From the NCBI GenBank assembly GCA_028290665.1, contig JAQGJK010000026.1, positions 154,861-218,860 of the forward strand: 64,000 nucleotides of DNA, in the 5' to 3' direction. Shown piece by piece: positions 21,446 to 60,107 of this stretch. The notes under the pieces are model-generated. The model did not search any database. It was not told the DNA's origin and was given only the letters and a program-made list of their open reading frames with translations. The first letter of the stretch is position 1. Every line of letters starts with the position of its first letter. The DNA is from Devosia sp. Its GTDB lineage: Bacteria; Pseudomonadota; Alphaproteobacteria; Rhizobiales; Devosiaceae. The position numbers and the translations under genes are program-made.

Positions 21446-21470
21446 CCCCCCGGGGACAACATCGGGAAAC
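21446..21470 (-). repeat. 25-bp element shared with the gafY promoter (copy 1)
   Basis: The 25 bases CCCCCCGGGGACAACATC + GGGAAAC occur here and, identically, at 60083-60107. It lies 18 bases beyond the KTSC stop codon and about 320 bases upstream of the g1 start. It has the same orientation relative to the minus-strand GTA genes as copy 2 has to gafY. See the findings for the regulatory hypothesis. Confidence 0.9.
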
Positions 21471-21582
21471 GCCCGCAGCGCCTTGATTGTGCGCAATCGG
21501 GCAGGTCTGCGATTCGCCTGGCCCGACAGCAAAACCCCGATGGAGGGAGCCGTCTGGTCCGCCGCGTTCGCGATTGCTGAAC

Positions 21583-21633
21583 CAACACCTCACTGTGTTG
21601 GAAAATCCGTGCGGCAATTCGGATTTTTCAATT
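21583..21633 (+). terminator. Double hairpin with T-tract (terminator; possible small RNA end)
   Basis: CCAACAC-CTCACT-GTGTTGG is followed directly by AAAATCCG-TGCGGCAATT-CGGATTTTTC. The second hairpin, ending in a T-run, is a standard rho-independent terminator on the + strand. It lies 150 bases after the KTSC gene, so it ends either that transcript or a separate small RNA. It lies upstream of the HWE kinase gene. Confidence 0.65.
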
Positions 21634-21667
21634 ATGTAGGGAGCTATCCAGCGGTCAGAGTTTCAGC

Positions 21668-22669
21668 ATGCAGTCCAGCGTCCCGGCCCCGCCTCTCTGG
21701 AATGAGCGTAATCTGCGACGCGCCATCGACGCCGCCGGAGTGGCGCTGTGGTCATGGAATGTCGACACCGACGACTTCGCCATGGACGATCAGGGCTGCA
21801 CCCTGTGGCACGTGCCCCGAGGCGGCGAAGTCACCTTCGAACACCTGTCGGCCCATATCCACCCGGCCGACCGCGACCGCGTCCGCGCCGCCTTCGTCGG
21901 CACGCGTGGCATCGTCGGCCCCTATGAAATCGATTTCCGCATCATGATCGGTGAAGAAATCCGCTGGATTTCAGCGCGCGGCGTGGGCAATGACGCCGGG
22001 ATGCATCTGCGTCAGATGTTCGGGGTGTTTCTCAACGTCACCGGCCGCAAGCAGGCCGAAGAAGGTCACGAATTGCTGGCCGGCGAAATGAGCCACCGCG
22101 TCAAGAACCTGCTTGCTATCGCTTCCGGCCTAACCCAGATTACCTCCCGATCGACAACCACCGCCGCCGAAATGGCCACCGAGTTGACCGCTCGTCTCGC
22201 GGCGCTCGGGCGTGCCCATGATCTGGTGCGTCCACTGCCCGGTCATCAGGGCGACGCGGCATTGCTCGGCGATCTCCTTAGCGTGCTGCTGTCACCCTAC
22301 GAGGACATGGGCGCCTTCAGCGGCCGCATCCGGGTGGCGGTGCCACGAATGGGCGTCAGCGAACTGGCGGCGACGACGCTGGCCCTGGTCATCCACGAAC
22401 TGGCGACGAATTCGCTCAAATACGGTGCCCTGTCCGCCGAGGCGGGGACACTGGATGTCTCCGGCTCGACTGTCGACGACGAAATCCTCATCGTCTGGAC
22501 CGAACGCGGCGGGCCGACGGTGCCAGCAGCCGGCGGACCCCAGGGCTATGGCAGCAAGATGCTGGCGCGAAGCGTCAATGGCCAACTGGGCGGTTCGATC
22601 AGCTACGATTGGTCGGTCGACGGCCTGATCGTCAACCTCAGGATCAAGGCCGACCGGCTGGCGGCGTAG
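21668..22669 (+). CDS. PAS-containing HWE-family sensor histidine kinase
   Basis: 333 residues, cytosolic (no membrane segment). A PAS-like fold occupies about 15-130, ending with GVFLNVTGRKQAEEGHE. The HWE kinase core follows: EMSHRVKNLLAIASGL with His143, then HELATNSLKYGALS (243-256) and WTERGGP (277-283), the His/Trp-Glu residues that name the family. G-box is GYGSKMLARSVNGQLGG. HWE kinases often feed general-stress or light-type signalling in alphaproteobacteria. No regulator is adjacent, so its partner is unknown. A bidirectional terminator follows. Confidence 0.9.
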   Translation: MQSSVPAPPLWNERNLRRAIDAAGVALWSWNVDTDDFAMDDQGCTLWHVPRGGEVTFEHLSAHIHPADRDRVRAAFVGTRGIVGPYEIDFRIMIGEEIRWISARGVGNDAGMHLRQMFGVFLNVTGRKQAEEGHELLAGEMSHRVKNLLAIASGLTQITSRSTTTAAEMATELTARLAALGRAHDLVRPLPGHQGDAALLGDLLSVLLSPYEDMGAFSGRIRVAVPRMGVSELAATTLALVIHELATNSLKYGALSAEAGTLDVSGSTVDDEILIVWTERGGPTVPAAGGPQGYGSKMLARSVNGQLGGSISYDWSVDGLIVNLRIKADRLAA

Positions 22670-22683
22670 TACCAACCACAAAA

Positions 22684-22707
22684 AAACGGACCCGACCGGG
22701 CCCGTTT
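22684..22707. terminator. Bidirectional terminator between HWE kinase and DUF378 genes
   Basis: Stem AAACGG-A-CCC / GGG-C-CCGTTT with runs of A before and T after. On the minus strand it ends in seven T residues, serving the DUF378 gene. On the plus strand TTTCTTCTT follows, serving the kinase gene. Confidence 0.8.
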
Positions 22708-22730
22708 CTTCTTACAGAGCAATCGGTCAG

Positions 22731-22961
22731 CTACAGCCGGCCGCGCTCAGCCGGAACTTCGCCGCTCGACAGGGCGCGTGAGAACGGCACCAACTGGTAG
22801 AGGGCGGAAAGGCCAACCAGTACATAGATGATGCGCGACAGCGCGGCCTGCTGGCCACCGAACAGGCTGGCAACCAGATCAAACTGAGCTGCTCCGACGA
22901 GCAGCCAATTGATGCCGCCAATAATCACCAGCAGCAGCGTAATCAAATTCAAGGCTTTCAT
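22731..22961 (-). CDS. DUF378 small membrane protein
   Basis: 76 residues: MKALNLITLLLVIIGGINWLLVGAAQFDLVASLFGG then SRIIYVLVGLSALYQLVPF. The I-G-x-I-N-W-L-L-V-G and V-G-L-S-A-L-Y motifs define DUF378 (two membrane helices, unknown function). The start at 22961 gives the family's N-terminus. It lies 136 bases downstream of chrA in the same direction. Confidence 0.88.
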   Translation of the reverse strand: MKALNLITLLLVIIGGINWLLVGAAQFDLVASLFGGQQAALSRIIYVLVGLSALYQLVPFSRALSSGEVPAERGRL

Positions 22962-23097
22962 TCCACACTCTCCAACACCGGGCCCGGACAACTTGACGAT
23001 CCCCGGATCGTTCCGCCGGCACGGTCTGATCGACTCCGGGTATTTCCCTTTCCAGAGGCGACAATTGCGGAGCGGCATCCGGGGCCCGTCCGCCGCA

Positions 23098-24297
23098 TCA
23101 TGGGACCGGCAGCAAATCCATCAGACCGCCGGCCAGCGCACACAGCGCTACGACCAGCCACGGTGGCGTCTTCCACATGAAGAGCAGCAGGAACGCGGCG
23201 ATCCCGAGGGCATAGTCGGCCGGATCGAGAATGCCGGAAGTCCAGACGGGCGAGTAGAGCGCCGCCAGCAGCAACCCCACCACGGCGGCATTGACGCCCT
23301 CGAGCATGGCCTGCGTCAGCTTCTGTCGGCGGAGATCCTCCCAGAATGGCAACGTCCCGACGACCAGCAGGAACGAGGGCGTAAAAATGGCGACGAGGCA
23401 AACCGCTGCCCCGAGCCAGCCATTGGGAAATGGGGTCATGGCCGCTCCAAGATAGGCGGCAAAGGTGAAAAGCGGGCCGGGCATCGCCTGTGTCGCGCCA
23501 TATCCGGCAAGAAACACGTCCTCGCCGATCCAACCAGGAGGCACGATCTCGGCCTGGAGCAACGGCAGCACGACATGGCCGCCGCCGAACACCAGCGAGC
23601 CCGAGCGATAAAATGCATCGATCAGGTCGATTGCATGATTTTCCGTGATTGCAGCCAGTAGCGGCAGGCCGGTCAGCAGCACGGCGAAAGCCAGCAGCGC
23701 AATCACCCCCGTGCGGCGACTTAGCGCGATCGGCAGTGCCACATGTTCGGTCGGCGACCCCTGTCGAAACCACACCGCCCCGACAAGGCCGCCAAGCGCG
23801 ATGGCGCCGATCTGTCCCCACGCCGTCGGGAACAACAGCGCCATGCCGGCAGCGACCGCCGCCAGTGTCGCCCGTTCCCGGTCCAGCGCGAGGGCTCGGG
23901 CCATCCCCAGCACGGCAAGAGCGACAATTGCGACGGCGGCGATCTTCAGGCCGTGCAGCCACCCGGCATCGAGCACCCCGGCGGTTGCCGTGATCCCGTA
24001 GGCGAACAGCACCAGAATAATCGCCGACGGCAGCGTGAAGGCCGTCCAGGCCGCGAGGGCACCGAGAAAACCCGCACGGGACAGGCCGATGGCCATGCCG
24101 ACCTGGCTCGACGCTGGCCCGGGCAGGAACTGGCAGAGCGCCACGAGATCGGCAAAGCTGCGCTCATCGAGCCACTGGCGGCGTTCGACGAACTCGGTAC
24201 GGAAATACGCCAGATGCGCGATCGGGCCGCCGAACGCCGTCAAACCGAGCTTGAGAAAAGCCCGGAACACCTCACCCGCACGTTCCCCCTGCATCAC
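23098..24297 (-). CDS. chrA: Chromate transporter (CHR family, ChrA-like)
   Basis: 399 residues, about ten to twelve hydrophobic segments, arranged as two homologous CHR domains. The N-half has FLKLGLTAFGGPIAHLAYF and CQFLPGPASSQVGMAIG. The C-half has LVFGGGHVVLPLLQAEIV and QAMPGPLFTFAAYLGAAM. The paired FGG(P/G) and PGP motifs are diagnostic. It is predicted to export chromate. No chrB or other resistance gene is next to it, so it may serve sulfate-like oxyanion balance instead. Confidence 0.93.
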   Translation of the reverse strand: MMQGERAGEVFRAFLKLGLTAFGGPIAHLAYFRTEFVERRQWLDERSFADLVALCQFLPGPASSQVGMAIGLSRAGFLGALAAWTAFTLPSAIILVLFAYGITATAGVLDAGWLHGLKIAAVAIVALAVLGMARALALDRERATLAAVAAGMALLFPTAWGQIGAIALGGLVGAVWFRQGSPTEHVALPIALSRRTGVIALLAFAVLLTGLPLLAAITENHAIDLIDAFYRSGSLVFGGGHVVLPLLQAEIVPPGWIGEDVFLAGYGATQAMPGPLFTFAAYLGAAMTPFPNGWLGAAVCLVAIFTPSFLLVVGTLPFWEDLRRQKLTQAMLEGVNAAVVGLLLAALYSPVWTSGILDPADYALGIAAFLLLFMWKTPPWLVVALCALAGGLMDLLPVP

Positions 24298-24375
24298 GCC
24301 CCCGGACTGTTTGCCAATAGCACGCAGACGATGTCGGTTTTATAAGCATCGCTTCGTCGGCCCCCGCTCGAACCC

Positions 24376-25629
24376 CTACGCCGGCCCGAACCGCCGCGAC
24401 GCGTCCAGCGCCAGCCCCAAGCCCACACTCCCGAACGCGTCGGTGCGCACCAGTTCCGCCTCCGGGAACTGCGCTGCGAGCGCTGCCGCCACGGCGGGGA
24501 CTTCCGTCGAGCCGCCCGTGAGGATCAGCGACTGGATCGCCCCGGCCCGCACCCCGGCGAGGTGCAGGGTCTTGTCGATGGTCTTGGTGATCCGCCCGAC
24601 GGCATCTTCGATGGCGGCATTGAGGTCGTCCCGCGCGATCGGGGTTTCGAGCACTACCTCGTCGACATCGAAACGGAACGCCACAAGCTCATGGCTTGAT
24701 AACGCGATCTTGCTGTCCTCTACCGCGGTCAGCAGCCGGTGCCCGGCGCGCGCCTCGATGATCGCCATCATGTCCTCGACCGGCATCGGCGACCGCGCCT
24801 CGCGGCGGGTCTGGCGCAGTTCGATCATGGTCCGCTGATCGTACAGCCGGTTGATCCGGTGCCAGGTCGACAGATCATTATACGGCGCCACCGGCAGATA
24901 CCGCTTGCCGTCAGCGGTCGGGCTGCCACGCCCGAGCAGCGGCATGATCTGGCGCATCGACAGCAGTCGGTCGAAATCCGTGCCGCCGATATGGACGCCC
25001 GCCGTCGCAAGGATATCGCGCTTGCGGTCGCTGGCCTTGGCCCGGTCCGGCGACACCCGGATGACGGTGAAATCGGAGGTGCCGCCGCCCAAATCGGCGA
25101 CCAGCGCCAGCTTTTCGCCCGTGATGGTCCGCTCATAATCGAGCGCCGCGGCGATCGGCTCGAACTGGAACTCGACGGCATCGAACCCCTGGCTGCGCAG
25201 CGCCTCTTCCAATTGCTGTTGCGCTTCCCGATCGGCCACCGGGTCGTCGTCGACGAACTGCACCGGTCGGCCGGCCACCACCGCGTCGATCGGCGCCCCC
25301 AGCGCCACTTCGGCGCGGTATTTCAGCATGCCGATGAACAGTCCGAGGATATCGGAAAACGCCAGCACCTCATCCTTGACCCGGGTCTTGTCGTTGATCA
25401 GCGCACTGCCGAGCACGCTTTTGAGCGACCGCATCACCCGGCCGTCGGTACCAGCGACATACTCCGCCAGCGCGGCGCGGCCGAACAGCGTGCGGTCATC
25501 CTCAAAGGAAAAGAAGATGACGCTCGGGATGGTGACCCGGTCGCCCTCGATCGGGAACAACCGGGGCATCCCGTTCGCCGCCGTGCCGATGGTCGAATTG
25601 GAGGTGCCGAAATCGAGGCCGCACTGCAT
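24376..25629 (-). CDS. Hsp70-family protein, YegD-like
   Basis: 417 residues. The actin/Hsp70 ATPase fold is marked by GLDFGTSNSTIG at the start (phosphate 1), LVADLGGGTSDFTVIRV (phosphate 2) and SLILTGGSTEVPAVAAAL near the end. It lacks the peptide-binding domain of DnaK, as YegD-type proteins do. In between is ALDYERTITGEKLALVADLGGG. Cytosolic; likely a stress-associated ATPase of unknown client. It stands alone, transcribed away from the VWA gene. Confidence 0.9.
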   Translation of the reverse strand: MQCGLDFGTSNSTIGTAANGMPRLFPIEGDRVTIPSVIFFSFEDDRTLFGRAALAEYVAGTDGRVMRSLKSVLGSALINDKTRVKDEVLAFSDILGLFIGMLKYRAEVALGAPIDAVVAGRPVQFVDDDPVADREAQQQLEEALRSQGFDAVEFQFEPIAAALDYERTITGEKLALVADLGGGTSDFTVIRVSPDRAKASDRKRDILATAGVHIGGTDFDRLLSMRQIMPLLGRGSPTADGKRYLPVAPYNDLSTWHRINRLYDQRTMIELRQTRREARSPMPVEDMMAIIEARAGHRLLTAVEDSKIALSSHELVAFRFDVDEVVLETPIARDDLNAAIEDAVGRITKTIDKTLHLAGVRAGAIQSLILTGGSTEVPAVAAALAAQFPEAELVRTDAFGSVGLGLALDASRRFGPA

Positions 25630-26100
25630 CGGGTCGCTTCGCCTAACGTCAAGGAGGGCCGGCGGTCATAGCCGATCGGCGCCGAAAGTCACCCCCTCGT
25701 TTCCGCATGCCTCGACTTCGGTCCGCCCGCAGCGGCACATGCAAAAAACCCACCCTCGCGGGTGGGCTGAGTTTTGCATGGGATAAACTGACTGATGTCA
25801 GGTCGATAGAACTGGAGATCGCAGGAGGCGGCCCGATCGCGGTGCCGCGCGGGTGACGCCTGATATGGAGGATCATGGCTGAACTGCCGCACAACCGCAC
25901 GTTCAGCTTTAATTCATCATTAACCTTGCCCAAATCCTAACCATGTCGGATCAATTTAGTTAAAGTTTATAACAAGTTGCGCGATCGGTTGCCATTGTGG
26001 AAAACTGGTGCGACACCGTTGCTGTAATCCCGCCGCGTAGTCCTGCATTCCCCTCCGGCCACATCGGGCCACCCGTCATTCATGACATTCGAGGTCGCCC
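25630..26100. other. Divergent intergenic region (471 bases)
   Basis: Lies between the starts of the YegD-like gene (minus) and the VWA gene (plus). It holds a strong two-tier palindrome at 25738-25780. From about 25900 to 26000 it is AT-rich (TTCATCATTAACC, AATTTAGTTAAAGTTTATAAC), the likely promoter zone of the VWA gene. No reading frame with protein-like character was found in it. Confidence 0.6.
25738..25780. terminator. Two-tier hairpin, terminator-like
   Basis: Inner stem CCCACCC-TCGC-GGGTGGG (25749-25766) inside an outer stem CATGCAAAA (25738-25746) / TTTTGCATG (25772-25780). A T-run follows the inner stem on the + strand and an A-run precedes it, so it could terminate either way. No gene ends beside it. 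Confidence 0.6.
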
Positions 26101-27783
26101 ATGAGGCTCATCAGAACACTGTTTGCCGGCGTGTTGCTTATGTTTGCCACTGCCGTGCCAACGCTCGCCGCCGAAAAGGCCATCATCGTGCTTGATGCGT
26201 CGGGGTCGATGTGGGCACAAGTCGATGGCGTGGCGCGCATCACCATCGCGCGACAGACCCTCGCCGATGTGCTGGGCACGCTGCCCGACGACATTGAACT
26301 CGGTCTCATCGCCTACGGCCATCGCGAAAAGGGCAATTGCGACGATATCGAACTCCTGGTCGAGCCCGAGGCCGGCACTGCCGATGCCATCATCGCCGCG
26401 GCCGACCGGTTGACCCCCAAGGGCAAGACCCCGCTGACCGCCGCGGTCAAGCTCGCAGCCGAGGATCTCAACTACACCGAGGACAAGGCGACGGTGATCC
26501 TGATTACCGACGGGCTCGAAACCTGCGAGGCCGATCCGTGCGCGCTGGGCGCGGCGCTCGAAGGCGCCGGCGTCGATTTCACCGCCCATGTCGTCGGCTT
26601 CGGTTTGTCCGATGCCGAGGGCCAGGCTGTTGCGTGTCTCGCGGAAAACACCGGCGGCGAATACCTCGCCGCCTCCGACGCCGCCTCGCTCACCAAAGCG
26701 CTGACCACCGCGGTGGCGCAAGTCAGCGAACCGGCCACCACGATCGAAGCCCCCGTCGAAGCGCCGGTCGAGGCACCCGTCAGCGACATCAGCATCGATC
26801 CTGAAATCGTCATGGCCGAGGGCGATGATCCGCTGCCCGATGATTTCTACATCGTCTGGGAACTGGCAAAGCCCGATTCCCGCGGCCGGGCCGGTGACTA
26901 TGTCGACACCGAATACTACGCCGGCTGGCGCGGCGTGCTCGAACCCGGCGATTACATCCTCACCGCCCGCGCCGATTACGCCGTCGTCTCGCAGCCCATC
27001 ACCATCGTCGCCGGAAAAACCGCCGAGCCGTATTTCGTGCTCAACGCCGGCCGGTTGATCCTCCACCCCAAGGCCACCGCCGATGCGGATACGGACGGCG
27101 ACGCCGCCGTCTACACCGAGTTCCCAAATGGTGAGAGCACCACCAGCTATGGCGATGTGAACCTCGTGGTCCCAGCCGGCGATACGGTGGTCACCGTCAC
27201 CCTCGGTTCCGCGGAAGTCACCGAAACCATCGCCGTCGCGGCGGGCGAAACCGTCGAGCGCGACATCGTCGTCGGCACCGGCCACGTCATCGTCAATGGC
27301 TATTACGTCGAGGGCATGAAGGTCGAGGACGGCGACATGTTCATCGAAATCCTGTCGGCCAAGGAAGCCATCGACGGCAGCCGCAAGAACTTCTCGTACG
27401 GCTACGGCCCGGATACGGCCCACGACCTCGCAGCCGGCGACTACCTCGCCCGCGTCACCATGGAGCAGGCGACTGTCGACGTGCCATTCACCGTCAAGGC
27501 CGGCGAGCAGTTCAAACTCGACGCCATCCTCGGCGCCGGCGTGCTCTACATCGCGGCGCCGGGTGGCGAGTCCTTCGAATATTTCGGTACCAAGAAAAAC
27601 ATTCAGGGCGAGCGTAAATCATTCGGCTACGCCTATGGCGAAGAAGCCCAGATGACGCTTCCGGCCGGCGACTACATCGTCGAAGTCACTCCCACCGGCG
27701 GCAGCGAACCCGTGGAAGTCGAAGCCACCGTTGTCGCCGGCGAACGCACCGAACTCGAGGTCGACTTCACCTCCGAGGAGTAA
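26101..27783 (+). CDS. Secreted VWA-domain protein with repeated beta modules
   Basis: 560 residues. Signal peptide 1-23 (cleavage after TLA). The VWA domain at about 25-205 carries the MIDAS triad Asp32-x-Ser34-x-Ser36 (VLDASGSMW), a Thr in KGKTPLTAAV and Asp in LITDGLETC, so metal binding looks intact. A Pro/Glu-rich linker (VEAPVEAPVSD) leads to three or four ~75-100-residue beta modules. Each has L-x-A-G-D-Y-x-x-x-V and V-x-A-G-E (for example VLEPGDYILTARA, HDLAAGDYLARVT, TLPAGDYIVEVT). Probably periplasmic or surface adhesion/assembly protein. A monocistronic gene. Confidence 0.9.
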   Translation: MRLIRTLFAGVLLMFATAVPTLAAEKAIIVLDASGSMWAQVDGVARITIARQTLADVLGTLPDDIELGLIAYGHREKGNCDDIELLVEPEAGTADAIIAAADRLTPKGKTPLTAAVKLAAEDLNYTEDKATVILITDGLETCEADPCALGAALEGAGVDFTAHVVGFGLSDAEGQAVACLAENTGGEYLAASDAASLTKALTTAVAQVSEPATTIEAPVEAPVEAPVSDISIDPEIVMAEGDDPLPDDFYIVWELAKPDSRGRAGDYVDTEYYAGWRGVLEPGDYILTARADYAVVSQPITIVAGKTAEPYFVLNAGRLILHPKATADADTDGDAAVYTEFPNGESTTSYGDVNLVVPAGDTVVTVTLGSAEVTETIAVAAGETVERDIVVGTGHVIVNGYYVEGMKVEDGDMFIEILSAKEAIDGSRKNFSYGYGPDTAHDLAAGDYLARVTMEQATVDVPFTVKAGEQFKLDAILGAGVLYIAAPGGESFEYFGTKKNIQGERKSFGYAYGEEAQMTLPAGDYIVEVTPTGGSEPVEVEATVVAGERTELEVDFTSEE

Positions 27784-27826
27784 ACCGGGCGCGGCTGGGA
27801 CAACTTAGCCGCACCACCCCCACCGC

Positions 27827-27939
27827 CGTCATCCCCGCGAAGGCGGGGACCCAGTACCCACCGCATCCGAGGCTAAACCCCAAGCGGTGCTACAAGCCAA
27901 CTTGGCGCATACTGGATTCCCGCCTCCGCGGGAATGACG
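27827..27939. repeat. Composite inverted repeat (type D)
   Basis: CGTCATCCCCGCGAAGGCGGGGACCCAGTA at the left (27827 on) mirrors TACTGGATTCCCGCCTCCGCGGGAATGACG at the right (to 27939), as two facing copies of one palindromic repeat. This kind of CGTCAT(C/T)CCCGCG repeat is dispersed in many alphaproteobacterial genomes. It lies between two convergent genes. Confidence 0.75.
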
Positions 27940-27965
27940 CCGCGCTCGTTAGACAGAGCAGCTCT

Positions 27966-28583
27966 TCACCCAACCATCGCCATCCGCGCCAGTTCGCTGC
28001 GCAGGTCGATGCTGTCGACCCGGTTGCGGCCGCGGTCGACCGCCCGGCCGAGCGCCAGCACTGCCCCATCGAGCAATTCGCGATGCCCGGCTTCCGCCGG
28101 ATTGGCCGCGGCGACCCCGATGGTGACGCTGTCGCCGGCCTTGCGGCTCGTCGCCGGAATGGTCCCGAGCGCCTCGCGCCGAATCTTTTCAGCGGCCATC
28201 CGCGCCAGCAGGATCGGTCCATCGGGCAGCGTTGCCACCAGCCGGCCCGAGCCCGACAATTGCACGATGCGGCTCGAGGCGGGAATGTGCGAGCGCACGA
28301 GTTCGGCAACGCGCACCAGGCGGCGGGTCGCCACTTCCGTCCCGTGACCACGCCGTAGTTCGGCATAGCCATCGATTTCGATCAGCATCACCGAGATCGA
28401 CACATGGCGGTCGGCGCAGCGCTTCCAGTCGGCCGAAATCGCGGCATCTGCGCCGTTCCGCAGGCCGTCTGGCTTCGGCGCGTGTGCGGAGGGCCCCTGC
28501 CGGCTCAACGGATTGAGTTCATGCAACGCGCTCGCAACGCGATCCCAGAAGCCCGGCCGGGAATGGAAAATGGTATCAGACAT
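27966..28583 (-). CDS. Degenerate GGDEF-domain protein
   Basis: 205 residues, soluble. The GGDEF fold spans about 60-190: VMLIEIDGYAELRRGHG (metal-site region), VRVAELVRSHIPASSRIVQLSGSGRLVATLP and ITIGVAAANP-like VTIGVAAANPAEAG. The active-site GG(D/E)EF is replaced by SGSGR (110-114), so cyclase activity is not expected. It may bind a nucleotide or a partner. A perfect TTAA-N7-TTAA lies about 60 bases upstream of the start, a CtrA-type site. Confidence 0.8.
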   Translation of the reverse strand: MSDTIFHSRPGFWDRVASALHELNPLSRQGPSAHAPKPDGLRNGADAAISADWKRCADRHVSISVMLIEIDGYAELRRGHGTEVATRRLVRVAELVRSHIPASSRIVQLSGSGRLVATLPDGPILLARMAAEKIRREALGTIPATSRKAGDSVTIGVAAANPAEAGHRELLDGAVLALGRAVDRGRNRVDSIDLRSELARMAMVG

Positions 28584-28642
28584 GGCGTTCTATCCTCTGG
28601 TCCGACCCGGAAACAACGAGCCCCAAACCTCCGCCCTTATGG

Positions 28643-28657
28643 TTAAGTCCCGGTTAA
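28643..28657. promoter_or_regulatory. CtrA-type binding site TTAA-N7-TTAA
   Basis: TTAAGTCCCGGTTAA: both half sites match and the 7-base spacing is exact. It is followed by AAC, matching the extended CtrA consensus. It lies 60 bases before the start of the degenerate GGDEF gene on the minus strand. Confidence 0.55.
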
Positions 28658-28732
28658 ACGGGCTTACTCGGAGGTATGGACGGATGGTTCGCACGCGGCC
28701 AGAAGCCGAGTCCGATGACCTCGTCATGCACG

Positions 28733-28905: not shown

Positions 28906-29060
28906 GGGGAAGGCTTCGCACTCGACGTTGCCACGGATGAAATTCACTCCCCGATTCAGCAATCACCGCCACACGCACACGCCATTGCGGCGAAGGCCGC
29001 AAACCACCTTGATGCCTCTCCCAGCCCCCAGCGTCCAATCCGTCCCTCCACCACCCAACC

Positions 29061-31788: not shown

Positions 31789-31792
31789 GCCG

Positions 31793-52273: not shown

Positions 52274-53239
52274 TCAATCCTTGAGCCCGAACCACACCTC
52301 GACGTCACCAGCGCCGCTTTGCGCGTCAAAGGCCGGGCCGTAATATTCGAGGAAGCTGTAGGGAGCCCCGCTCGCCTCGTAGCCAGCCTCCGCAAGCCAG
52401 TCGGACGCGGCACCGATGGTTGCGCGCAGGCTGGTCACATCGCCCGAGTGGGTGAACCGGGCCCAGCGCAATGCCGGCACCGCGATGACCGTCAGTTCCG
52501 GCGGCAGGTCGGCGTCGGGCCGCACTTCGACCGCCGTAATATACTCGAAGTCCTCGCCGTTGGTTTCAGCGTCCCCGACAATGCCGAAAGCCGCCTTGCC
52601 CAACGCGCCATCGACATTCCCGAGATAGGGCTGAAATTGCTGCCATTGTGCCGGGATGCCGGCCCCATGGCTCATCTGGTGACGCTGCGAAATGCCGGCG
52701 AACCGCATCGATTGGCGGTTTTCAAACACCGGTGGGGTGAGATTGACATTGATATCGGTCGTCATCGGATAGGGCTCCACAAGGGCTATGTCATCAAGAC
52801 TGCGTCGTCGTCGCAGCAGTTCGGGCGTGATGCCGAACTGATTGCGGAAGGCACGGGTGAATGCCTCATGCGAGCCATAGCCAGCGTCGAGAGCGACGGC
52901 GAGGATGTCGGGAGCACCGGCTGCGAGGGCACGCGCGGCTTCCGTCAATCTGCGGGCCCGCAGATATCCCGTGATGGAATATCCGGTGACCATGGGGAAC
53001 AGGCGCGACAGATAGGTCGGAGATTTGCCGGTCACTTCCACCAGGTCATCGAGCGACACCGGTTCACGAAACCGGCTTTCGAGGACCCAGAGCATCTTTG
53101 CGACCAGTGACACGGACCTGAACTCTCCTGAGGCCGGGACTGTATGCCATGACGGCGAAACCGCCATTTGATCCTGGATGCCCTCGACGATGCTCAACCG
53201 ATAGTCAACGGCACTCGAAATGCCGCGACCGACCGACAT
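52274..53239 (-). CDS. AraC-family regulator with GyrI-like ligand domain
   Basis: 321 residues from 53239 (other starts: 53284, and 53167 with AGGA nearby). AraC HTH: EVTGKSPTYLSRLFPMVTGYSITGYLRARRLTEAARALAAGAPDILAVALDAGYGSHEAFTRAFRNQFGITP. The C-terminal half is a GyrI-like/effector-binding fold: RFAGISQRHQMS.. and ASDWLAEAGYEASGAPYSFLEYYGPAF. A stand-alone regulator of unknown target, possibly drug-binding. Confidence 0.9.
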   Translation of the reverse strand: MSVGRGISSAVDYRLSIVEGIQDQMAVSPSWHTVPASGEFRSVSLVAKMLWVLESRFREPVSLDDLVEVTGKSPTYLSRLFPMVTGYSITGYLRARRLTEAARALAAGAPDILAVALDAGYGSHEAFTRAFRNQFGITPELLRRRRSLDDIALVEPYPMTTDINVNLTPPVFENRQSMRFAGISQRHQMSHGAGIPAQWQQFQPYLGNVDGALGKAAFGIVGDAETNGEDFEYITAVEVRPDADLPPELTVIAVPALRWARFTHSGDVTSLRATIGAASDWLAEAGYEASGAPYSFLEYYGPAFDAQSGAGDVEVWFGLKD

Positions 53240-53321
53240 GCTTTGGCTGCTTTTGCGCCGGCGCAAGCCTGACCTATACGACACTCAGGCGTCCTGTCGC
53301 CGACAGTCTGAACGAGGACCA

Positions 53322-54311
53322 TTAGCGGCCGCTGCCGGAGAAATCCGGTTCGAGGCGCTCGACTTCAATCGTGAGGTGCGAGAGTTCCTGCAGATGAGCC
53401 AGTTTTTCCCGGTAATACGAGGGCGCTTCGGGGTTTTTCGAGCTCACCGAAATGATTGCGCCGTGATGGCCGGGGCCGAGTTTCCAGACATGGAGATCGG
53501 TAATCCGTTCGCCGCCGGTCTCGACCGCCTGCCGGATTTGTTCCGGCAGCTCTTCGTCCGCCGGAATGTAATCGAGCAGCACGGCGCCAGCGTCCCGTAT
53601 GAGGCCCCATGACCAGCGGGCAATGACCAGCGCCCCGACTATCCCGATCAGCGGATCGAGCCACAGCCAGCCATAAATGCTCCCGAGGATAAGCGCGCCA
53701 ATCGCCAGCACCGAGGTCAGGGCATCGGCCAGCACGTGCAGGTAGGCGGCACGCAGATTATTATCGCGGCCGTGCCCCTGATGTGCATGATCGTGGCGAT
53801 GCTCATGGCCCCCGTGATGATGATCGTGGTCGCCATGGTGAGCGTGATCGCCTCTTAGCAGCCACGCACTGATCAGGTTGACGATCAGGCCCGCGATTCC
53901 AACCGCGATGGCCTGGCCAAACGAAATCGCCACCGGATGGTAAAACCGCTGGACACTCTCATAGGCGATGAACAGGGCGATCAACGCGAGGACCACGGCA
54001 CTCGAGAATGCCGCCAGATCGCCGAACTTTCCCGTCCCGAAGGTAAACCGGCCATTCCCGGCGTGCTTGCGCGCCAGGTAGTACGCCCCCGCGGCAATCA
54101 GCATCGCGGCGGCATGGGTCGACATATGCAGGCCGTCCGCGATCAGTGCCATCGACCCGTAGGCCGAACCGGCGGCGATCTCGATCACCATCATCGAGAC
54201 GGTCAGGGCAATGACCAGCCAGACCCGGCGTTCGTTGCGACCGTGATTTTCACCGAGAAAGACATGCGAATGACCGGCGCCAAGCGGGCCGGGCGCGTTG
54301 ATGGCGCTCAT
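53322..54311 (-). CDS. dmeF: Cation diffusion facilitator (DmeF-like)
   Basis: 329 residues, six membrane helices. The N-terminal HSHVFLGENHGRNERRVWLVIALT marks the DmeF type. Metal-site helices include GSMALIADGLHMSTHAAAML and DALTSVLAIGALI. A His-rich loop (HAHHGDHDHHHGGHEHRHDHAHQGHG) faces the cytosol. The C-terminal domain ends ERLEPDF. Exports Co2+/Ni2+ in relatives. It forms an operon with the DmeR-type repressor (4-base overlap). Confidence 0.93.
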   Translation of the reverse strand: MSAINAPGPLGAGHSHVFLGENHGRNERRVWLVIALTVSMMVIEIAAGSAYGSMALIADGLHMSTHAAAMLIAAGAYYLARKHAGNGRFTFGTGKFGDLAAFSSAVVLALIALFIAYESVQRFYHPVAISFGQAIAVGIAGLIVNLISAWLLRGDHAHHGDHDHHHGGHEHRHDHAHQGHGRDNNLRAAYLHVLADALTSVLAIGALILGSIYGWLWLDPLIGIVGALVIARWSWGLIRDAGAVLLDYIPADEELPEQIRQAVETGGERITDLHVWKLGPGHHGAIISVSSKNPEAPSYYREKLAHLQELSHLTIEVERLEPDFSGSGR

Positions 54312-54580
54312 TTCAGGTACGTCCTCACGACTTCGATCAATTCGGCCGCGCCCTGCTCCCGTTGTCCGGGGTCAGCCACTGCCATGATGTGCTCCCGAAT
54401 GTGGTCCTCGATCAGTTCGGCGGTCAGACCGCTCATGGCGCCGCGTGCAGAGGCCACCAGATTGAGAATCTCGGCGCAGGGAGCGTCGCTTTCAAGCAAC
54501 CGCTCGACGGCCTCCAGCTGCCCTTTGAGGCGTCGGATCCGAGCGAGCAGTTTCGGCTTCTGCTGAATTATGTGACTCAT
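54308..54580 (-). CDS. dmeR: CsoR/RcnR-family metal-responsive repressor (DmeR-like)
   Basis: 90 residues: MSHIIQQKPKLLARIRRLKGQLEAVERLLESDAPCAEILNLVASARGAMSGLTAELIEDHIREHIM. His3, Cys35, His60 and His64 match the RcnR/DmeR metal site. It represses dmeRF until Ni or Co binds. A G-tract operator lies ahead of it. Confidence 0.92.
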   Translation of the reverse strand: MSHIIQQKPKLLARIRRLKGQLEAVERLLESDAPCAEILNLVASARGAMSGLTAELIEDHIREHIMAVADPGQREQGAAELIEVVRTYLK

Positions 54581-54589
54581 CCGAGTAAC

Positions 54590-54606
54590 ATAGGGGGGTA
54601 CCCTAT
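54590..54606. promoter_or_regulatory. G-tract operator of dmeRF
   Basis: ATAGGGGGGTACCCTAT. A run of G flanked by AT is the site type bound by RcnR/DmeR proteins. It lies 10 bases before the dmeR start. Confidence 0.75.
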
Positions 54607-54840
54607 TAATTTCAAGTTGAACGACCGGAATTGCCGACGGGTCGCAACGAGGCGGCTAGATCAGCAGCGCCGAAATCGCTGCGCTGTGGTCCGCAGCGCA
54701 TTCCAGGTCGATCGGCGACTCAACTGGTGAGGCCAGCTTGGCTAGAACACCCCGAGGGCCTCAGCGATCGCCTTCTCAGGCTAGCAAAAACGCGAGGCAC
54801 CTGATCTTATGAGGGTGTCAAAAACATTGAGGGGGGACCC

Positions 54841-55080
54841 ATGCCCTACGTTCGCATCGAGATCACCGACGGCGCCACCGACGAACAGAAGCTCCAGATT
54901 TATGAGGAAACCACCGAGATGCTGGTCCGCATCCTCGGCAAGAATCCCGAATACACGTTCATCGTGATCGAGGAAGTCGACAACAAGAACTGGGGCCACA
55001 AAGGCACCTCGGTTGCCAAGATCCGCGAAGCCGAAGCCGCCGCCAAGGCCGCAGCCGCGCCCCTCACAGCGGTCGCCTGA
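54841..55080 (+). CDS. 4-oxalocrotonate tautomerase family protein
   Basis: 79 residues. After Met removal, Pro1 is the catalytic residue (MPYVRIEITDGATDEQKLQIYEETTEMLVRILG), followed by YTFIVIEEVDNKNWGHKG. A GAGGGGGG lies 5 bases upstream. Reaction partner unknown. A single gene. Confidence 0.88.
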   Translation: MPYVRIEITDGATDEQKLQIYEETTEMLVRILGKNPEYTFIVIEEVDNKNWGHKGTSVAKIREAEAAAKAAAAPLTAVA

Positions 55081-55108
55081 CAAGCCGGCACCCTGCTTGC
55101 CTGCTATC

Positions 55109-55170
55109 CTCCCCCGCAGCAGCGGGGGAGGGGGACCATCCAGAGGATGGTGGAGGGGGCGGCGCGAACC
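55109..55170. repeat. Type C palindromic repeat (left half)
   Basis: TATCCTCCCCCGCAGCAGCGGGGGAGG and GGGACCATCCAGAGGATGGTGG, then GGGGGCGGCGCGAACC. The right arm seen in other copies is absent. Confidence 0.75.
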
Positions 55171-55207
55171 CCGGCAGCGCCCATAGCGGCCACAACAATA
55201 ACGCCCC

Positions 55208-55933
55208 TCAGGCGGCCACCGGCATACGCGGCTTCTCCCAATCCATCACAAGGAAGGAGGGGACCCTTCTGAAAAGATCGATCTGCTGGGCGTTCCCGCC
55301 ATGCGGCGGCGGCTCATCGAAGTATCGCAACTGCAAGTTATTGCCGAGTAACAGCGCCATGTAAGTCCCAAGTGGCCGGTGCCAGTTCTGCACACGGAGT
55401 TCGCCCCAGCCGATCCAGTCGGACCGCTCTTCGAGGTAATGATCAATCAAAAAACTGTTTGTACCGTCTTCCGCCTCCCGCCACCCCGTCGGATTACTGG
55501 CGCTGTAAAAACTGTTCAGATTCGCGATCAGAAGGTGCCCGCCCGAGCGCAATACCCGAGTCATTTCACCGATGGCTTTTGCCAAGTCGGGAATGTCGAT
55601 GAGGCTCATATAGGCCACGACGAGATCGAACGACTGATCCTCGAACGGCAATAGCTCTGCCCCAACGGCGCAATATTCACCCTCCGGATGCAATTGTCTG
55701 GCCTTACGGATTAAAGATTCGGCCGGGTCGATGCCAGTCGTGATGAGGCCCCATGCGGAGAGCAGCCGGCAAAACCGACCCTCACCGCACCCGACGTCGA
55801 GAACAGTCTTCGCCTCACTCAACCGGGCCCGGTCGAGCATGGGCCGATCAAGAACAAACCGCCGCGCAAAATCCCCCTCGACGCCTATCGTTGAAATCCA
55901 GGCCTCGGCGGACTCTTCCCATCCATTCGACAT
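55208..55933 (-). CDS. Class I SAM-dependent methyltransferase
   Basis: 241 residues with start at 55933, supported by AGGGGGAAG upstream. Motifs: TVLDVGCGEGRFCRLLSAWG, TGIDPAESLIRKAR, FDLVVAYMSLIDIPDLAKAIGEMTRVLRSGGHLLIANL. The second half is typical of ubiquinone/small-molecule methyltransferases (LGTYMALLLGNNLQLRYFDEPPPHGG). Substrate unknown. Confidence 0.9.
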   Translation of the reverse strand: MSNGWEESAEAWISTIGVEGDFARRFVLDRPMLDRARLSEAKTVLDVGCGEGRFCRLLSAWGLITTGIDPAESLIRKARQLHPEGEYCAVGAELLPFEDQSFDLVVAYMSLIDIPDLAKAIGEMTRVLRSGGHLLIANLNSFYSASNPTGWREAEDGTNSFLIDHYLEERSDWIGWGELRVQNWHRPLGTYMALLLGNNLQLRYFDEPPPHGGNAQQIDLFRRVPSFLVMDWEKPRMPVAA

Positions 55934-56285
55934 CAGCAACTTCCCCCTGAGTGTCGGCAATTCAACAAACCGAACTGCAATGTCGAAGGTGGCCGATCAG
56001 TGACGAGACGGGCTGCCGACAAGTGAACGAAAGGCGGACCCGATGCTTGATCGGGCACCGCCGGCCGTCGCCAAGCACCACCGGGCGGAGGTAAAGCCGC
56101 TACTCATCGAGCCGGCCGAGTTCATCACCCCTACTATCCTCCCCCGTCAAAGACGGGGACGGGGACCACCCACCCACTACGCAGCGTCGGCCATCACCAT
56201 CGTCAAGCGACCAATCCGGCGGCCGGATTGCCTTGAGCTCTTACGCAACGGCGCCCGCATCCGCCCGGCGACGGCCCCCGACGCC
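55934..56285. other. Intergenic region (352 bases) with reductase remnant and partial repeat
   Basis: Holds a reductase fragment (56067-56122) and a left arm of the type C repeat (TCCTCCCCCGTCAAAGACGGG, 56140-56160). The remaining ~100 bases up to the next gene show no feature I recognise. Confidence 0.5.
56067..56122 (-). pseudogene. Short fragment of a dihydrofolate reductase-family gene
   Basis: The bases GCCGTCGCCAAGCACCACCG followed by GGCGGAGGTAAAGC.. match, with a few changes, the stretch at 56379-56436 of the intact gene (coding for the LRPVVLGGGKPFF region). Probably the leftover of a tandem duplicate. Confidence 0.75.
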
Positions 56286-56831
56286 TCAGGCGGGAACGTA
56301 CGTCAATTTCATCGTGTCCCCGGAGAGCTGTTCGCTTGACACGAGGTGGAGTAGCGATCGGGGGGTGTTGAAGAACGGTTTGCCGCCGCCGAGCACCACG
56401 GGGCGGAGGTAAAGCTGGTACTCATCGAGCAGGCCGAGTTCGGCGAGGCCTCCGGCGAGTTCGGGTCCGGCGACTTCGATCGTGCCCTCCTGCTCGGCTT
56501 TGAGCGTCCGGACGAACTGTTCGAGATCGCCGTTCACCAGCGTCGCATTCGGCCCGACCGAGTGCAGGGTCCGCGACACCACCCATTTCGGCTTCTCCCG
56601 CCAGGCCGTCGCAAACGCGTTGCCGACATCGTCCTCGGCTGGCTGATCCTCGTCCCAGTAGCGCATGATCTCATACATGCGCCGGCCGTAGAGGCTGCCG
56701 GCCGAGTGGCTCAGCTGGTCGCTGAAGTGCCGATGCAGGGCGTCGTCCGGCATTGGCAGCCCGGGCGCGCCTTCGACACCCGAAACATAGCCGTCGAGCG
56801 ACTGCAGCATTGCAAAAACGAGCTTGGCCAT
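56286..56831 (-). CDS. Dihydrofolate reductase-family (RibD C-terminal) protein, copy 2
   Basis: 181 residues: LVFAMLQSLDGYVSGVEGAPGLPMPDDALHRHFSDQLSHSAGSLYGRRMYEIMRYWDED, KWVVSRTLHSVGPNATLVNGD and IEVAGPELAGGLAELGLLDEYQLYLRPVVLGGGKPFF. Clear paralogue of the protein at 43644-44177. Divergent from an intact HxlR regulator, likely its controller. Confidence 0.9.
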   Translation of the reverse strand: MAKLVFAMLQSLDGYVSGVEGAPGLPMPDDALHRHFSDQLSHSAGSLYGRRMYEIMRYWDEDQPAEDDVGNAFATAWREKPKWVVSRTLHSVGPNATLVNGDLEQFVRTLKAEQEGTIEVAGPELAGGLAELGLLDEYQLYLRPVVLGGGKPFFNTPRSLLHLVSSEQLSGDTMKLTYVPA

Positions 56832-56952
56832 GGGTGGCTCCTGTCGAGTGGTGGCAGTCCGGAGGGATTGCCAGTTACGCCGTGCATTGTGCTAGCAGTG
56901 CCTCGCGGGGTAGAACCATTACTAATTCGCAACCGGTTGAGGGATGCATTGC

Positions 56953-57465
56953 ATGAGCCGCCGCCGCTCGGGATGCCCGATAGACCTGACGCTCGAGACC
57001 TTCGGCAATCGCTGGAGCCTGATCATCCTCCGCGACATCATGTTCGGCGGCCACCGCACTTTTCGAGCGCTCCTCGCCCACAACATGGAAGGGATCGCGT
57101 CCAACATTCTCGCCGACCGGCTGGCACGGCTGGCGGCAAATGGGCTGCTGTCGCGCTGCGGCGATCCCGGCCACAAGCAGCGAGTGGTCTATAGCCTGAC
57201 CGAAAAGGCCATCGATCTGGTCCCGATGATGGCGGTCATGGGCAGCTGGGGGGTGCGCCACACCCTCGCCTCGACGGAGCTCTCGACCCGCGCGAAGGTG
57301 CTTGAAGCCGGCGGGCCGCCGCTCTGGTCCGCCTTCATGGCAGAGTTGCGCCACTTCCACCTCGGTGCACCGCAACCCGCCGAGTCGGTCCTCGCCATGA
57401 TGCAGTCGGCATACGAAGCGGCGCTGGCGGAACGCCGCCCGCAAGCTGATCTGGTTGCGGGATAG
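56953..57465 (+). CDS. HxlR-family transcriptional regulator
   Basis: 170 residues from ATG 56953 (GAGGG 9 bases upstream; the ATG at 56944 is too near it). RSGCPIDLTLETFGNRWSLIILRDIMFGGHRTFRALLAHNMEGIASNILADRLARLAANGLLSRCGDPGHKQRVVYSLTEKAIDLVPMM is a complete HxlR winged helix with a Cys near the start, the redox-type residue. It probably controls the divergent reductase gene. Confidence 0.93.
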   Translation: MSRRRSGCPIDLTLETFGNRWSLIILRDIMFGGHRTFRALLAHNMEGIASNILADRLARLAANGLLSRCGDPGHKQRVVYSLTEKAIDLVPMMAVMGSWGVRHTLASTELSTRAKVLEAGGPPLWSAFMAELRHFHLGAPQPAESVLAMMQSAYEAALAERRPQADLVAG

Positions 57466-58594
57466 CGACGGAGGCCGATGCATCCAGACCGTGCATCGGC
57501 GGCGGCGTTAAGTTGGGGGGATGCTTGCCATGCAGACCTGAGCCCGCGCAGCAATTGCTTCGGGTGTCTCGGCCGCGACGGGCCGGTCGAGCGTACGCGA
57601 GCATCAGGTCGTTGCATCGATGATGCCGAGCCGTTCTGGCCGCAAGCAGCAAAGCGCGGTCCGATGCGGTGATCGCTGCCCGATTTTCCAATGTCGAACC
57701 GGCGGACCAGTCGGGCGCCTGCCGGTATAGGAGGGACAAGCGGCCAGCCCCAAACACGGCGTGTGCCATGACCATCACGGAGCCAACGATCGGGTGGCCG
57801 GCTAAGTCGAGCCCCTACTTTCCTCCCCGTGCAATGCACTGGAGAGGCAAGCAGCCGAGCCACGGCGCAACCTCCCGACTAGCCAATGCAAAAACGTGTA
57901 GCCCGGCTTTGCAAAAGTCGAACTTCACCCTGGCAAGACATCCCCCGCTTTCCTCCCCCGCAGTCGCGAGGGAGGAGGACCATCCGCAGGATGGTGGAGG
58001 GGGCGGCGCAAACTCCGCCGCCGTGTCCGTGGCCGCCCCCTCCACCGGCTTTGCCGGTCCCCCTCCCCCGTGCCATGCACGGGAGAGGAAAACAGGCCGA
58101 GCCAAAGCCGGCCGCATTCGTCACATCACACGCCTGAAAGACCGCCACGCCCCTCTTGCTATCCTCCCCTGTCGCAGACGGGGGAGGGGGACCATCCGCA
58201 GGATGGTGGAGGGGGCGGCGCAAACTCCGCCGCCGTGTCTATGGCCGCCCCCTCCACCGGCTTTGCCGGTCCCCCTCCCCCGTGCCATGCACGGGAGAGG
58301 AAAACAGGCCGAGCCAAAGCCGCGCCGCACTCGTCACATCGCTCGCCTGAAAGACCGCCAAGCCCTCTTGCTATCCTCCCCTGTCGCAGACGGGGGAGGG
58401 GGACCATCCGCAGGATGGTGGAGGGGGCGGCGCGAACTCCGTCTCTGAGCCTCCAGCCGCCCCCTCCCCCGTGACTTGCACGGGAGAGGAAGTCAACGCA
58501 CCCTGACCCCAATACGGATTCAAAATCCGCTGATGAAAATTCTTTTCGGCGAAGATAAGGTCATCAATACCGAGATCGGGCTTAGGAATCGGCC
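57466..58594. other. Long gene-poor region with tandem palindromic repeats
   Basis: 1129 bases. The first ~380 bases (57466-57840) have no frame I trust; a faint AhpD/CMD-like reading on the minus strand (SDRALLLAARTARHHRCND) is not convincing. From 57950 to 58495 runs the 212-bp tandem array. The last 100 bases lead into a small gene. Confidence 0.6.
57950..58495. repeat. Tandem array of 212-bp type C repeats (3 units)
   Basis: Units start near 57950, 58161 and 58373 (period 211-212). Each contains the left hairpin CTCCCCTGTCGCAGACGGGGGAG, the GGGACCATCCGCAGGATGGTGG hairpin, a CGGCTTTGCCGG element (units 1-2) and a right arm CCCTCCCCCGTGCCATGCACGGGAGAGG. They are joined by an AAAACAGGCCGAGCC.. 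spacer. Unit 3 has a different middle and ends early. Confidence 0.85.
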
Positions 58595-58873
58595 ATGGAC
58601 GGACTTATTCGCGGATTTTTCCACTACGCGATTTTGGTGTGTTTGCCGGCCATTACGGCCTTTCTGGTTTATAACTATGTTCGCGAACTTTGGGTCTACG
58701 CCACCGACCGAGCGAAGTTCAACACCTTGAAGAAGCCAATAATCATGGACGGGGAGAGCGGCGGTACCGAGATTTCGTCACCCGCCGGCCGTTTGCTGTT
58801 CTCGTATCCGTTCTTTATCGCCGGCTTCGCCCTTTTTTGCGGTCTTATTTTGGCGCGGCAGTGGAACCCCTGA
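58595..58873 (+). CDS. Hypothetical small membrane protein
   Basis: 92 residues. Two hydrophobic segments: FFHYAILVCLPAITAFLVYNYV (about 8-29) and LLFSYPFFIAGFALFCGLILA (about 67-87). A short charged region lies between. No family recognised. It follows the repeat array and is moderately lower in GC than its neighbours. May be a recent arrival. Confidence 0.55.
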   Translation: MDGLIRGFFHYAILVCLPAITAFLVYNYVRELWVYATDRAKFNTLKKPIIMDGESGGTEISSPAGRLLFSYPFFIAGFALFCGLILARQWNP

Positions 58874-59127
58874 CTTCTACATATTTGGATGAAGGGCGTG
58901 TAGCTAGGCGACGGGCCGTACCAGCGGTTAAAGCCCAGCGCCGACAGTCGGCTAGCCTTGCCATGGCACGGTCTCTCAATGCGCAGCATATGCGTTTCAA
59001 AGCGCAGCGCAGGATCACCAGAGGCGGGCTAATTGCCCCATATCCTCTCTATATTGACGGCCCGCTTGCGATGCACATCTATGCGACTATGGCGATTTCC
59101 TCCGGTGAGACCTTGGCTAGGCTCCGG

Positions 59128-59643
59128 TCACATTTCGCGTTCACGGCGTCGGACGCTATCCGTCGGCAACCCACCCTCACCGATGAACACTTCGAGCCGC
59201 CGCGACGCCGGCCCTACCGCCCGGTCGTCGAGGCCCCACTGCCGGGCCAGCGCATCGAGTCCCGCACGCAGCAGAAATTTGGCGCTGCGCCGCGGCCAGC
59301 GGCGTTCCGCCTCGATTTCCGCCAGCCCCTTGCCGAACCCACAGACATCGAGCACCACTCCGGCGCAATCGCCCGGCAGGCCGGCCACCAGTGTGTTGAG
59401 CTGTTTCCGTGCAGTGGCGGCGCTATCCGAAAGGTCATTGCCCCCACCGCCGCCGCCTGGAATTCGCACAGCGTCATAGGACATGGTCAGCCGCGGCATT
59501 AGCGCCGCCCGCCGAAACAGGCCCTGCAGCCGCACCGCGGCCTCCAGCTGCCGCGCCCCGAGAAACGCCTCGCTTTCCCCCGCTTGCGGTTTGGCGAGCC
59601 GAAGCAGCGGGGTGGTGTCGGCCACCCGGACCGGCGCCGCCAT
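59128..59643 (-). CDS. gafZ: GafZ-like GTA activator partner, DUF6456 (split GafA C-terminus)
   Basis: 171 residues from the ATG at 59643, with GAGG 5 bases upstream (the GAGG overlaps the gafY stop). DUF6456 signature: DTTPLLRLAKPQAGESEAFLGARQLEAAVRLQGLFRRAALMPRLTMSYDAVRIPGGGGG, and GVVLDVCGFGKGLAEIEAERRWPRRSAKFLLRAGLDALARQWG, typical of the protein placed after GafY in Caulobacter. In Caulobacter GafY and GafZ together activate the GTA; GafA of Rhodobacter is the fused form. Assigned from the family pattern and the adjacent partner. Confidence 0.7.
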   Translation of the reverse strand: MAAPVRVADTTPLLRLAKPQAGESEAFLGARQLEAAVRLQGLFRRAALMPRLTMSYDAVRIPGGGGGGNDLSDSAATARKQLNTLVAGLPGDCAGVVLDVCGFGKGLAEIEAERRWPRRSAKFLLRAGLDALARQWGLDDRAVGPASRRLEVFIGEGGLPTDSVRRREREM

Positions 59644-59650
59644 CGCCGCC

Positions 59651-60028
59651 TCACGCCGCGGCATCGGTCACCCCCTCGGCAAAGCTCCGGAGTTCGACAT
59701 GCAGCGTCTCGACCAGGCGATCGAACCCCGGATCGTCGCGGGCATCCTCGATCAGCTGGCAGGCGTGCCGCACCGTCGCCCGGTCGCGCCCGAACTGCCG
59801 CCCGATCTCGGCCATGCCGCGCGACAGCGTCGAATTGAGCAGGTACATCGCCAGTTGCCGCGCCCGCACCACCGCCGCCCGGCCGCGCTTCTCGCGCACC
59901 AGCACCGCTGCATCGACCCCGTTAGCCACCGCCGCCAGATCGAGCGCCAGCGACCCAACCAGATCGCGCCGCACCCCCGCCTGCCGCCACAGCCCCGCCT
60001 CACGCCGCTCGCCACTCAAAACCCGCAT
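59651..60028 (-). CDS. gafY: GafY-like DNA-binding GTA activator (DnaA-IV-like domain)
   Basis: 125 residues from ATG 60028, with GGAGG 5 bases upstream. The middle has a DnaA domain IV-like helix-turn-helix: ARQLAMYLLNSTLSRGMAEIGRQFGRDRATVRHACQLIEDARDD (about 56-100), where GRDRATVRHA mirrors the DnaA box-binding motif. It is followed by the DUF6456 gene with 7 bases between, so the pair is an operon. In GafA-type systems this protein binds the GTA promoter. The GTA structural cluster is in the same window. Confidence 0.7.
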   Translation of the reverse strand: MRVLSGERREAGLWRQAGVRRDLVGSLALDLAAVANGVDAAVLVREKRGRAAVVRARQLAMYLLNSTLSRGMAEIGRQFGRDRATVRHACQLIEDARDDPGFDRLVETLHVELRSFAEGVTDAAA

Positions 60029-60045
60029 CGCACCCTCCAAACTTA

Positions 60046-60079
60046 ATAGGATTATATTCCTATATTGTTCGCACAACAA
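60046..60079 (-). promoter_or_regulatory. gafY promoter with two operator-like palindromes
   Basis: On the minus strand TTGTTG (-35, 60074-60079), a 17-base spacer and TATAAT (-10, 60051-60056) form a near-consensus sigma-70 promoter. Overlaid are TTGTT-CGCAC-AACAA (60065-60079) on the -35, and ATAGGA-N6-TCCTAT (60046-60063) on the -10. Both palindromes could block polymerase when bound. A GGAGG lies at 60034-60038. Confidence 0.75.
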
Positions 60080-60082
60080 CCA

Positions 60083-60107
60083 CCCCCCGGGGACAACATC
60101 GGGAAAC
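60083..60107 (-). repeat. 25-bp element shared with the GTA cluster front (copy 2)
   Basis: The same 25 bases as 21446-21470. It ends 3 bases upstream of the gafY -35 box, the classic position for an activator. Confidence 0.9.

Follow-up and report, generated by a model that had tools for sequence, protein, structure and literature searches.

A shared element at the GTA and gafYZ promoters

The 64,000-nucleotide stretch of Devosia sp. DNA considered here (the window) carries, on its minus strand, a gene transfer agent (GTA) cluster and a gafY–gafZ pair, an arrangement in which a DnaA-type helix-turn-helix gene adjoins a DUF6456 gene and which is a mark of GafYZ-type GTA control. The structure matched by the gafY product, PDB 1j1v, is domain IV of E. 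coli DnaA. Exact copies of one 25-bp sequence, GTTTCCCGATGTTGTCCCCGGGGGG, lie upstream of the GTA cluster and upstream of gafY, in identical orientation to the genes that follow (Table 1), as a first-pass annotation of the window had noted. We consider it probable, on sequence grounds, that this element holds a binding site for GafY, the switch for a domesticated virus that moves genes between bacteria. The evidence is good but indirect, and consists of sequence, conservation, spacing, enrichment and association with gafY.

A search of the window with the 25-mer at ≤3 mismatches returned two matches, against none in 100 shuffles of the window. At the same threshold the genome's own assembly (2.24 Mb) contained only these two places and the reversed pattern was absent, so that many unrelated copies, the outcome named beforehand as contrary to a shared site, were not found; the assembly is 60.95% complete, and further copies may therefore be missing. 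The 25-mer includes a core, TTGTCCCCG, and a TTTCCCGATG part. The count of two applies to the whole 25-mer and not to a shorter form, TCTCCCGATGTTATCCCC(G/A)G, which in the same genome is also found ahead of three copies of an RNA-like repeat, close to contig ends.

In the GTA promoter of the window, the core is placed 25 bp upstream of the −10 hexamer, and the transcript is predicted to start at about 21422. With the −10 set at −12 to −7, the box spans about −37 to −29, centred near −33. The first-pass annotation was right that no −35 follows the element here, because the core itself occupies the −35 position. At gafY, as described earlier, three bases separate the end of the element from the −35 TTGTTG.

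Table 1. Features of the window and associated loci
Feature	Position or locus	Strand	Basis
GTA cluster	6240..21177	-	four genes checked by Pfam
GTA TIM-barrel tail protein	6240–9998	-	Pfam
Capsid	15318–16553	-	Pfam
Portal	18140–19285	-	Pfam
Terminase	19401–20651	-	Pfam
−10 TAGAGT of GTA promoter	21429..21434	-	aligned with TATAGT and downstream block of relatives
Spacer GGGGGCCCGCGTGGGG, between core and −10	21435..21450	-	
Core TTGTCCCCG, proposed GafY box in −35 place	21451..21459	-	position and spacing as TTATCCCCG in relatives
25-bp element, GTA-side copy	21446..21470	-	exact match
gafZ, DUF6456 protein, after gafY	59128..59664	-	Pfam 5.1e-26
gafY, DnaA-type helix-turn-helix, 125 aa	59651..60028	-	Pfam Bac_DnaA_C 1.7e-13; PDB 1j1v 9.8e-8
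Palindrome TAGGAATATAATCCTA over −10, proposed RogA-type operator	60047..60062	-	sequence
gafY promoter: TTGTTG (60079–60074), 17 bp, TATAAT (60056–60051)	60051..60079	-	sequence
25-bp element, gafY-side copy	60083..60107	-	exact match
Core TTGTCCCCG, proposed GafY box at gafY	60088..60096	-	core conserved in gafY promoters
RNA-like element	L316–L321, L251, L259, L289–L297; own genome L221, L222, L233 (contig ends)		

Among neighbouring genes, a KTSC-domain gene at 21162–21428 (+) lies opposite the predicted GTA leader, which is antisense to all but the end of the gene. An HWE-type histidine kinase gene at 21668–22669 (+) is directed away from the GTA promoter region. The surroundings of gafYZ include a ROS/MucR regulator gene (62527–62949, −); in Hyphomicrobiales, too, a mucR-like gene has been described next to gafA-type genes.

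Conservation of the core among relatives

The whole 25-mer had no match with ≤3 mismatches in 150 relatives, and upstream regions were therefore compared genome by genome. Pairs of upstream regions within each of 48 genomes had, in many cases, a common word around CTTATCCCCG. Promoters were then scored in a non-random sample of 68 gafY and 67 GTA promoters, of which 50 and 49 came from best-scoring hits plus their partners and the remaining 18 of each were chosen to broaden genus coverage. The relatives' core, TTATCCCCG, occurs upstream of gafY with ≤1 mismatch in 65/68 family genomes (reversed word, 1/68; reverse complement, 5/68), and in the first 50 of these promoters it starts 25–34 bp before a palindrome, TAGGA-N-TCCT. 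This palindrome, in the form TAGGA-N5-7-TCCT, was found in 62 of the 68 gafY promoters and also in Caulobacter-type gafY promoters. It resembles the published RogA sites at Caulobacter gafYZ, GGAA-N4-TTCC (PMC11150451, PMC9632790), and we propose from its sequence a RogA-type operator at gafYZ.

Of 49 GTA promoters, 45 have the core at an offset of exactly 25 bp from the −10 (≤2 mismatches). Nine other offsets were compared, and among them a match appeared at 26 bp alone (two promoters). The wider set provided 65 anchored promoters (G003 and G007 lie outside the 67, and G045 and G052 were unanchored), with the core at 25 bp (52) or 26 bp (3) in 55 of them at ≤2 mismatches; this count misplaces G021 and G028 through a lax anchor, both of which carry the box in the 49-promoter set. 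Directly after the core, CGTSACG is present in 59/65 anchored GTA promoters (≤1 mismatch), and no exact copy occurs in 50 gafY promoters. This palindrome, a putative GafZ element, has no counterpart in the GTA spacer of the window, where GGGGGCCCGCGTGGGG stands instead; the 25-bp spacing is retained. Upstream of the main box in the GTA promoters of G152, G088 and G063 (L059, L062, L098), TTATCC is repeated two or three times in tandem, 9 bp apart.

Matching of 9-mers between promoters within genomes gave a weak signal (382, compared with an average of 376.9 under permutation; 29 of 5000 permutations did at least as well), as most genomes share one core. A correspondence between recognition helix and box variant was also considered. 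The window GafY reads GRDRATV where 29 other aligned family proteins have GRDRTTV and four Caulobacter-type proteins GRDRTTC, the changed residue corresponding to E. coli T435, which is reported to bind specific bases (PMC9638019). We did not use this match as evidence, since TTGTCCCC is also the GTA-promoter sequence in two genomes with Thr in GafY, G022 and G052; it is further undercut by G009, whose GafY also has Ala (GRSRATV) but with other boxes.

Five genomes (G004, G005, G016, G023 and G029) have TTGACA or TTGACT in place of the box at the GTA promoter, under a TAGGAAAATAGTCC-like palindrome and followed by a CGTSACG-type sequence, while their gafY promoters retain the exact core. At these loci (L357, L359, L371, L389, L391), the combination of TTGACA/T with a RogA-like palindrome looks as if the promoter were directly repressor-controlled. 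The swap would represent the same cluster shifting from activator control towards seemingly repressor control, as in a prophage. It mirrors a published chimeric construct, in which the Caulobacter GTA promoter given a near-consensus −35 was active independently of GafYZ (PMC11150451, PMC9632790).

A genome-wide promoter class linked to gafY

In eight genomes, chosen once they were known to carry the box, ACTTATCCCCG has 80 sites against 3 for the reversed pattern. The promoter pattern CTTATCCCCG-N16/17-TANNNT has 402 sites against 9 reversed across 101 family genomes, and 34 against 17 across 240 genomes of the taxonomic class. Among the latter, G217, G280 and G384, with 6, 3 and 3 sites, have DUF6456; G360, with 3 sites, was not among the DUF6456 matches.

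A GafY-like match is present in 100/101 family genomes, in some of which it is only DnaA. Ten genomes were counted as lacking gafY, meaning no match or a DnaA-looking match (the G154 match, at 6.3e-8, was assigned to DnaA on the strength of its E-value), and eight of these ten have no site of the promoter class (one-sided rank test, 4e-5, kinship ignored). Terminase was found in 92/101 family genomes; six of the ten gafY-less genomes are also without it, and all six have 0 sites. The other four (G003, G007, G026, G047) have terminase hits with gafY undetected, so that gafY may be unassembled there. Within genus g11, the site count is 0 in each of five genomes without gafY and 0–28 in the 14 that have it (exact p 6e-4, kinship ignored).

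Other targets

To describe what the box precedes, 75 of the 80 ACTTATCCCCG sites were examined, leaving out five known gafY or GTA sites, and were split by eye into 3 GTA, 4 gafY, 23 RNA-element and 45 other sites, some of the last being orthologous or inside genes. Among these 45, the commonest distance to a −10 is 25 bp, with 14 sites; no other distance has more than 7. For the genome of the window, the inspection covered 30 of 54 sites at ≤2 mismatches. A gene for a protein with DUF2793 and S74 domains follows the box in two genomes; DUF2793 has been called a GTA tail fibre (PMC10883770). Other genes 3' of a box encode an ABM-domain protein and products without a clear GTA link.

The largest single target group is a repeated RNA-like element of ~250 nt (23/75 sites). 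A model built on positions 1–130 of the element has matches in 44/101 family genomes, with up to 16 per genome; the genome of the window has three, which sit at assembly breaks because the element is multi-copy. Among the ten gafY-less genomes, only G074 has a match, a weak one (4e-4). The core is at the expected place, with ≤1 mismatch, in 25 of the 30 loci returned, and also at an own-genome locus at a contig end that falls outside this count; the own-genome RNA-element box lies 25 bp before TAAGCT. The predicted RNA structure has double changes in 7 of 13 pairs and a weak energy. Rfam gave no credible match for the element (its output was a tRNA at another place and four hits under the gathering score), and a literature search found nothing on it.

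Comparison with characterised systems

The closest parallel is Caulobacter crescentus, where GafY acts at the gafYZ and GTA promoters and contacts RpoD, and where a GafZ element lies between −35 and −10 (PMC11150451, PMC9632790). The two systems have in common the gafY–gafZ pair, an activator-dependent GTA promoter, a GGAA-N4-TTCC operator at gafYZ and a GTA-promoter palindrome between −35 and −10, which most relatives have but the window lacks. They also have in common a site at both the gafYZ and GTA promoters, a defining feature of GafYZ-type control that is present here as judged from sequence. IHF sites, another such feature, are not apparent: the exact E. coli consensus, WATCAANNNNTTR, occurs in 2/46 GTA and 1/50 gafY promoters. 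A good box 102–104 bp before the −10 occurs in two genomes, G006 and G017, with no IHF consensus seen there.

In its position only, the box resembles that of T4 MotA, which is centred near −30 and replaces the −35 (PMC6755090), an activator box standing in place of a −35 ahead of a normal −10. By analogy, an activator on the present box would take over the role of the −35. Unlike in T4, protein and site are unrelated to MotA's, and no counterpart of the co-activator AsiA is known here, no search having been aimed at one.

GafY and DnaA share a helix-turn-helix family, and the TTATCC half of the box is DnaA-like. The DnaA box consensus is TTATNCACA, with CACA where the core has CCCG, and TTGTCCCCG does not conform to it. 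GafY also differs from E. coli DnaA in having GRDR instead of GRDH and, at 125 aa, no ATPase domain. Rhodobacter capsulatus GafA likewise has a DnaA-like N-terminus and binds the GTA promoter and its own promoter directly (PMC6363796, PMC9638019), as one protein in contrast to GafY plus GafZ; the parts of these two papers examined contain no sequence of a GafA site.

Weighing the GafY site against alternatives

The suggestion of a shared site, perhaps GafY's, gains from a conserved, DnaA-box-like core at both promoters and from the absence of the promoter class in 8/10 gafY-less genomes. It changes in that the GTA site replaces a −35 rather than preceding one and in that other promoters are served too. 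Several observations weigh against GafY as the binder. In Caulobacter, the GafY site has been mapped to −123 to −113, with IHF between, whereas the present site is at −35; the C. vibrioides site, located via published promoter letters, reads ACTATGGGGAT and shares with the core only ATCCCC, on the other strand; and four Caulobacter-type gafY promoters contain no convincing second copy of it. The DnaA-like domain of Rhodobacter GafA is dispensable for autoregulation at the gafA promoter. Among relatives, the spacing to the −10 at gafY is unlike that at GTA, and three GTA promoters (G006, G156, G050) have neither a box at ≤2 mismatches nor TTGACA. In the gafY comparison, which ignores kinship, G003 (1 site) and G007 (3 sites), both fragmented, have the class without detected gafY, and 12/90 genomes with gafY have none. 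Finally, the genome of the window has no exact CTTATCCCCG site, as its core and the preceding base differ.

Binding of the box by DnaA or another host-wide factor, which would couple the GTA and gafYZ promoters to replication or growth state, is unlikely. DnaA is present in all these bacteria, and TTATCC is common to the core and TTATNCACA, but the same pattern built on a true DnaA box, CTTATCCACA, shows no enrichment (15 sites versus 14 reversed, 101 genomes), and the class is missing from most gafY-less genomes even though they keep DnaA. We regard as more improbable still that an alternative sigma factor uses TTATCCCCG as its −35, with the sites forming its regulon. Such a factor would fit the constant 25-bp distance of the core from the −10, seen at GTA and further promoters; the −10, however, stays TATAGT-like, the core-to-palindrome distance at gafY varies rather than being fixed, TTGACA/T takes the core's place in five genomes, and Caulobacter GafY works with RpoD.

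The full 25-bp identity is peculiar to the genome of the window: all 16 bases flanking the core agree between its two copies, compared with at most 10/16 within each of 47 other genomes and up to 12/16 in pairs drawn from different genomes. This identity beyond the core may reflect a recent copy of a promoter piece by gene conversion or duplication, a tentative explanation that is compatible with a GafY site. Against it, the three RNA-type promoters of the same genome have the upstream TCCCGATGTT but lack GGGGG downstream, as though recognition extended to the upstream part; that part is perhaps a second subsite, comparable to the TTATCC tandem repeats of relatives.

Proposed mechanism and significance

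We infer GafY as the binder, a sigma contact at these promoters and a role for GafZ. A DnaA-box-like core is expected from the DnaA-type domain of GafY, and TTGTCCCCG here, like TTATCCCCG in relatives, would be a DnaA-box derivative read by its helix-turn-helix. At the GTA promoter, box-bound GafY would contact sigma-70 and keep RNA polymerase on a −10-only promoter; in most relatives, CGTSACG between box and −10 would load GafZ for anti-termination. At gafYZ, the putative site lies just upstream of a −35/−10 pair whose −10 is overlapped by the RogA-like operator, an arrangement that suggests GafY self-activation opposed by a repressor; given the longer distance from core to −10, GafY probably acts there from just upstream of the −35. 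The GafY site may also recruit polymerase to the tail-fibre gene and the multi-copy RNA-like element.

In Caulobacter, Gozzi et al. report that a GafYZ motif was not predictable from their data, and Tran and Le that the small number of sites impeded MEME. Among the papers listed as naming GafY, those about the protein are these two, PMC13236601 and PMC13281022. The parts seen of PMC13236601 give a motif for CdxB and none for GafY, and PMC13281022 mentions GafY once. Among the matches listed for the literal core in papers, none is on GTAs by title, and no GafY motif was found in print within the open-access literature searched.

Because related bacteria have the same core before the same genes, recognition by GafY is directly testable. 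The family-wide motif and fixed spacing predict the target of GafY, a mode of action without a visible IHF site, and genes of the GTA programme. We are evenly divided on the broader proposal that GafY is a DnaA-derived −35 replacer across a regulon that includes a multi-copy, ~250-nt structured RNA not in Rfam. Of the leads, the RNA-like family is the most unexpected: if the proposal is true, switching on the GTA would fire many copies of one RNA together, in the genome of the window as well.

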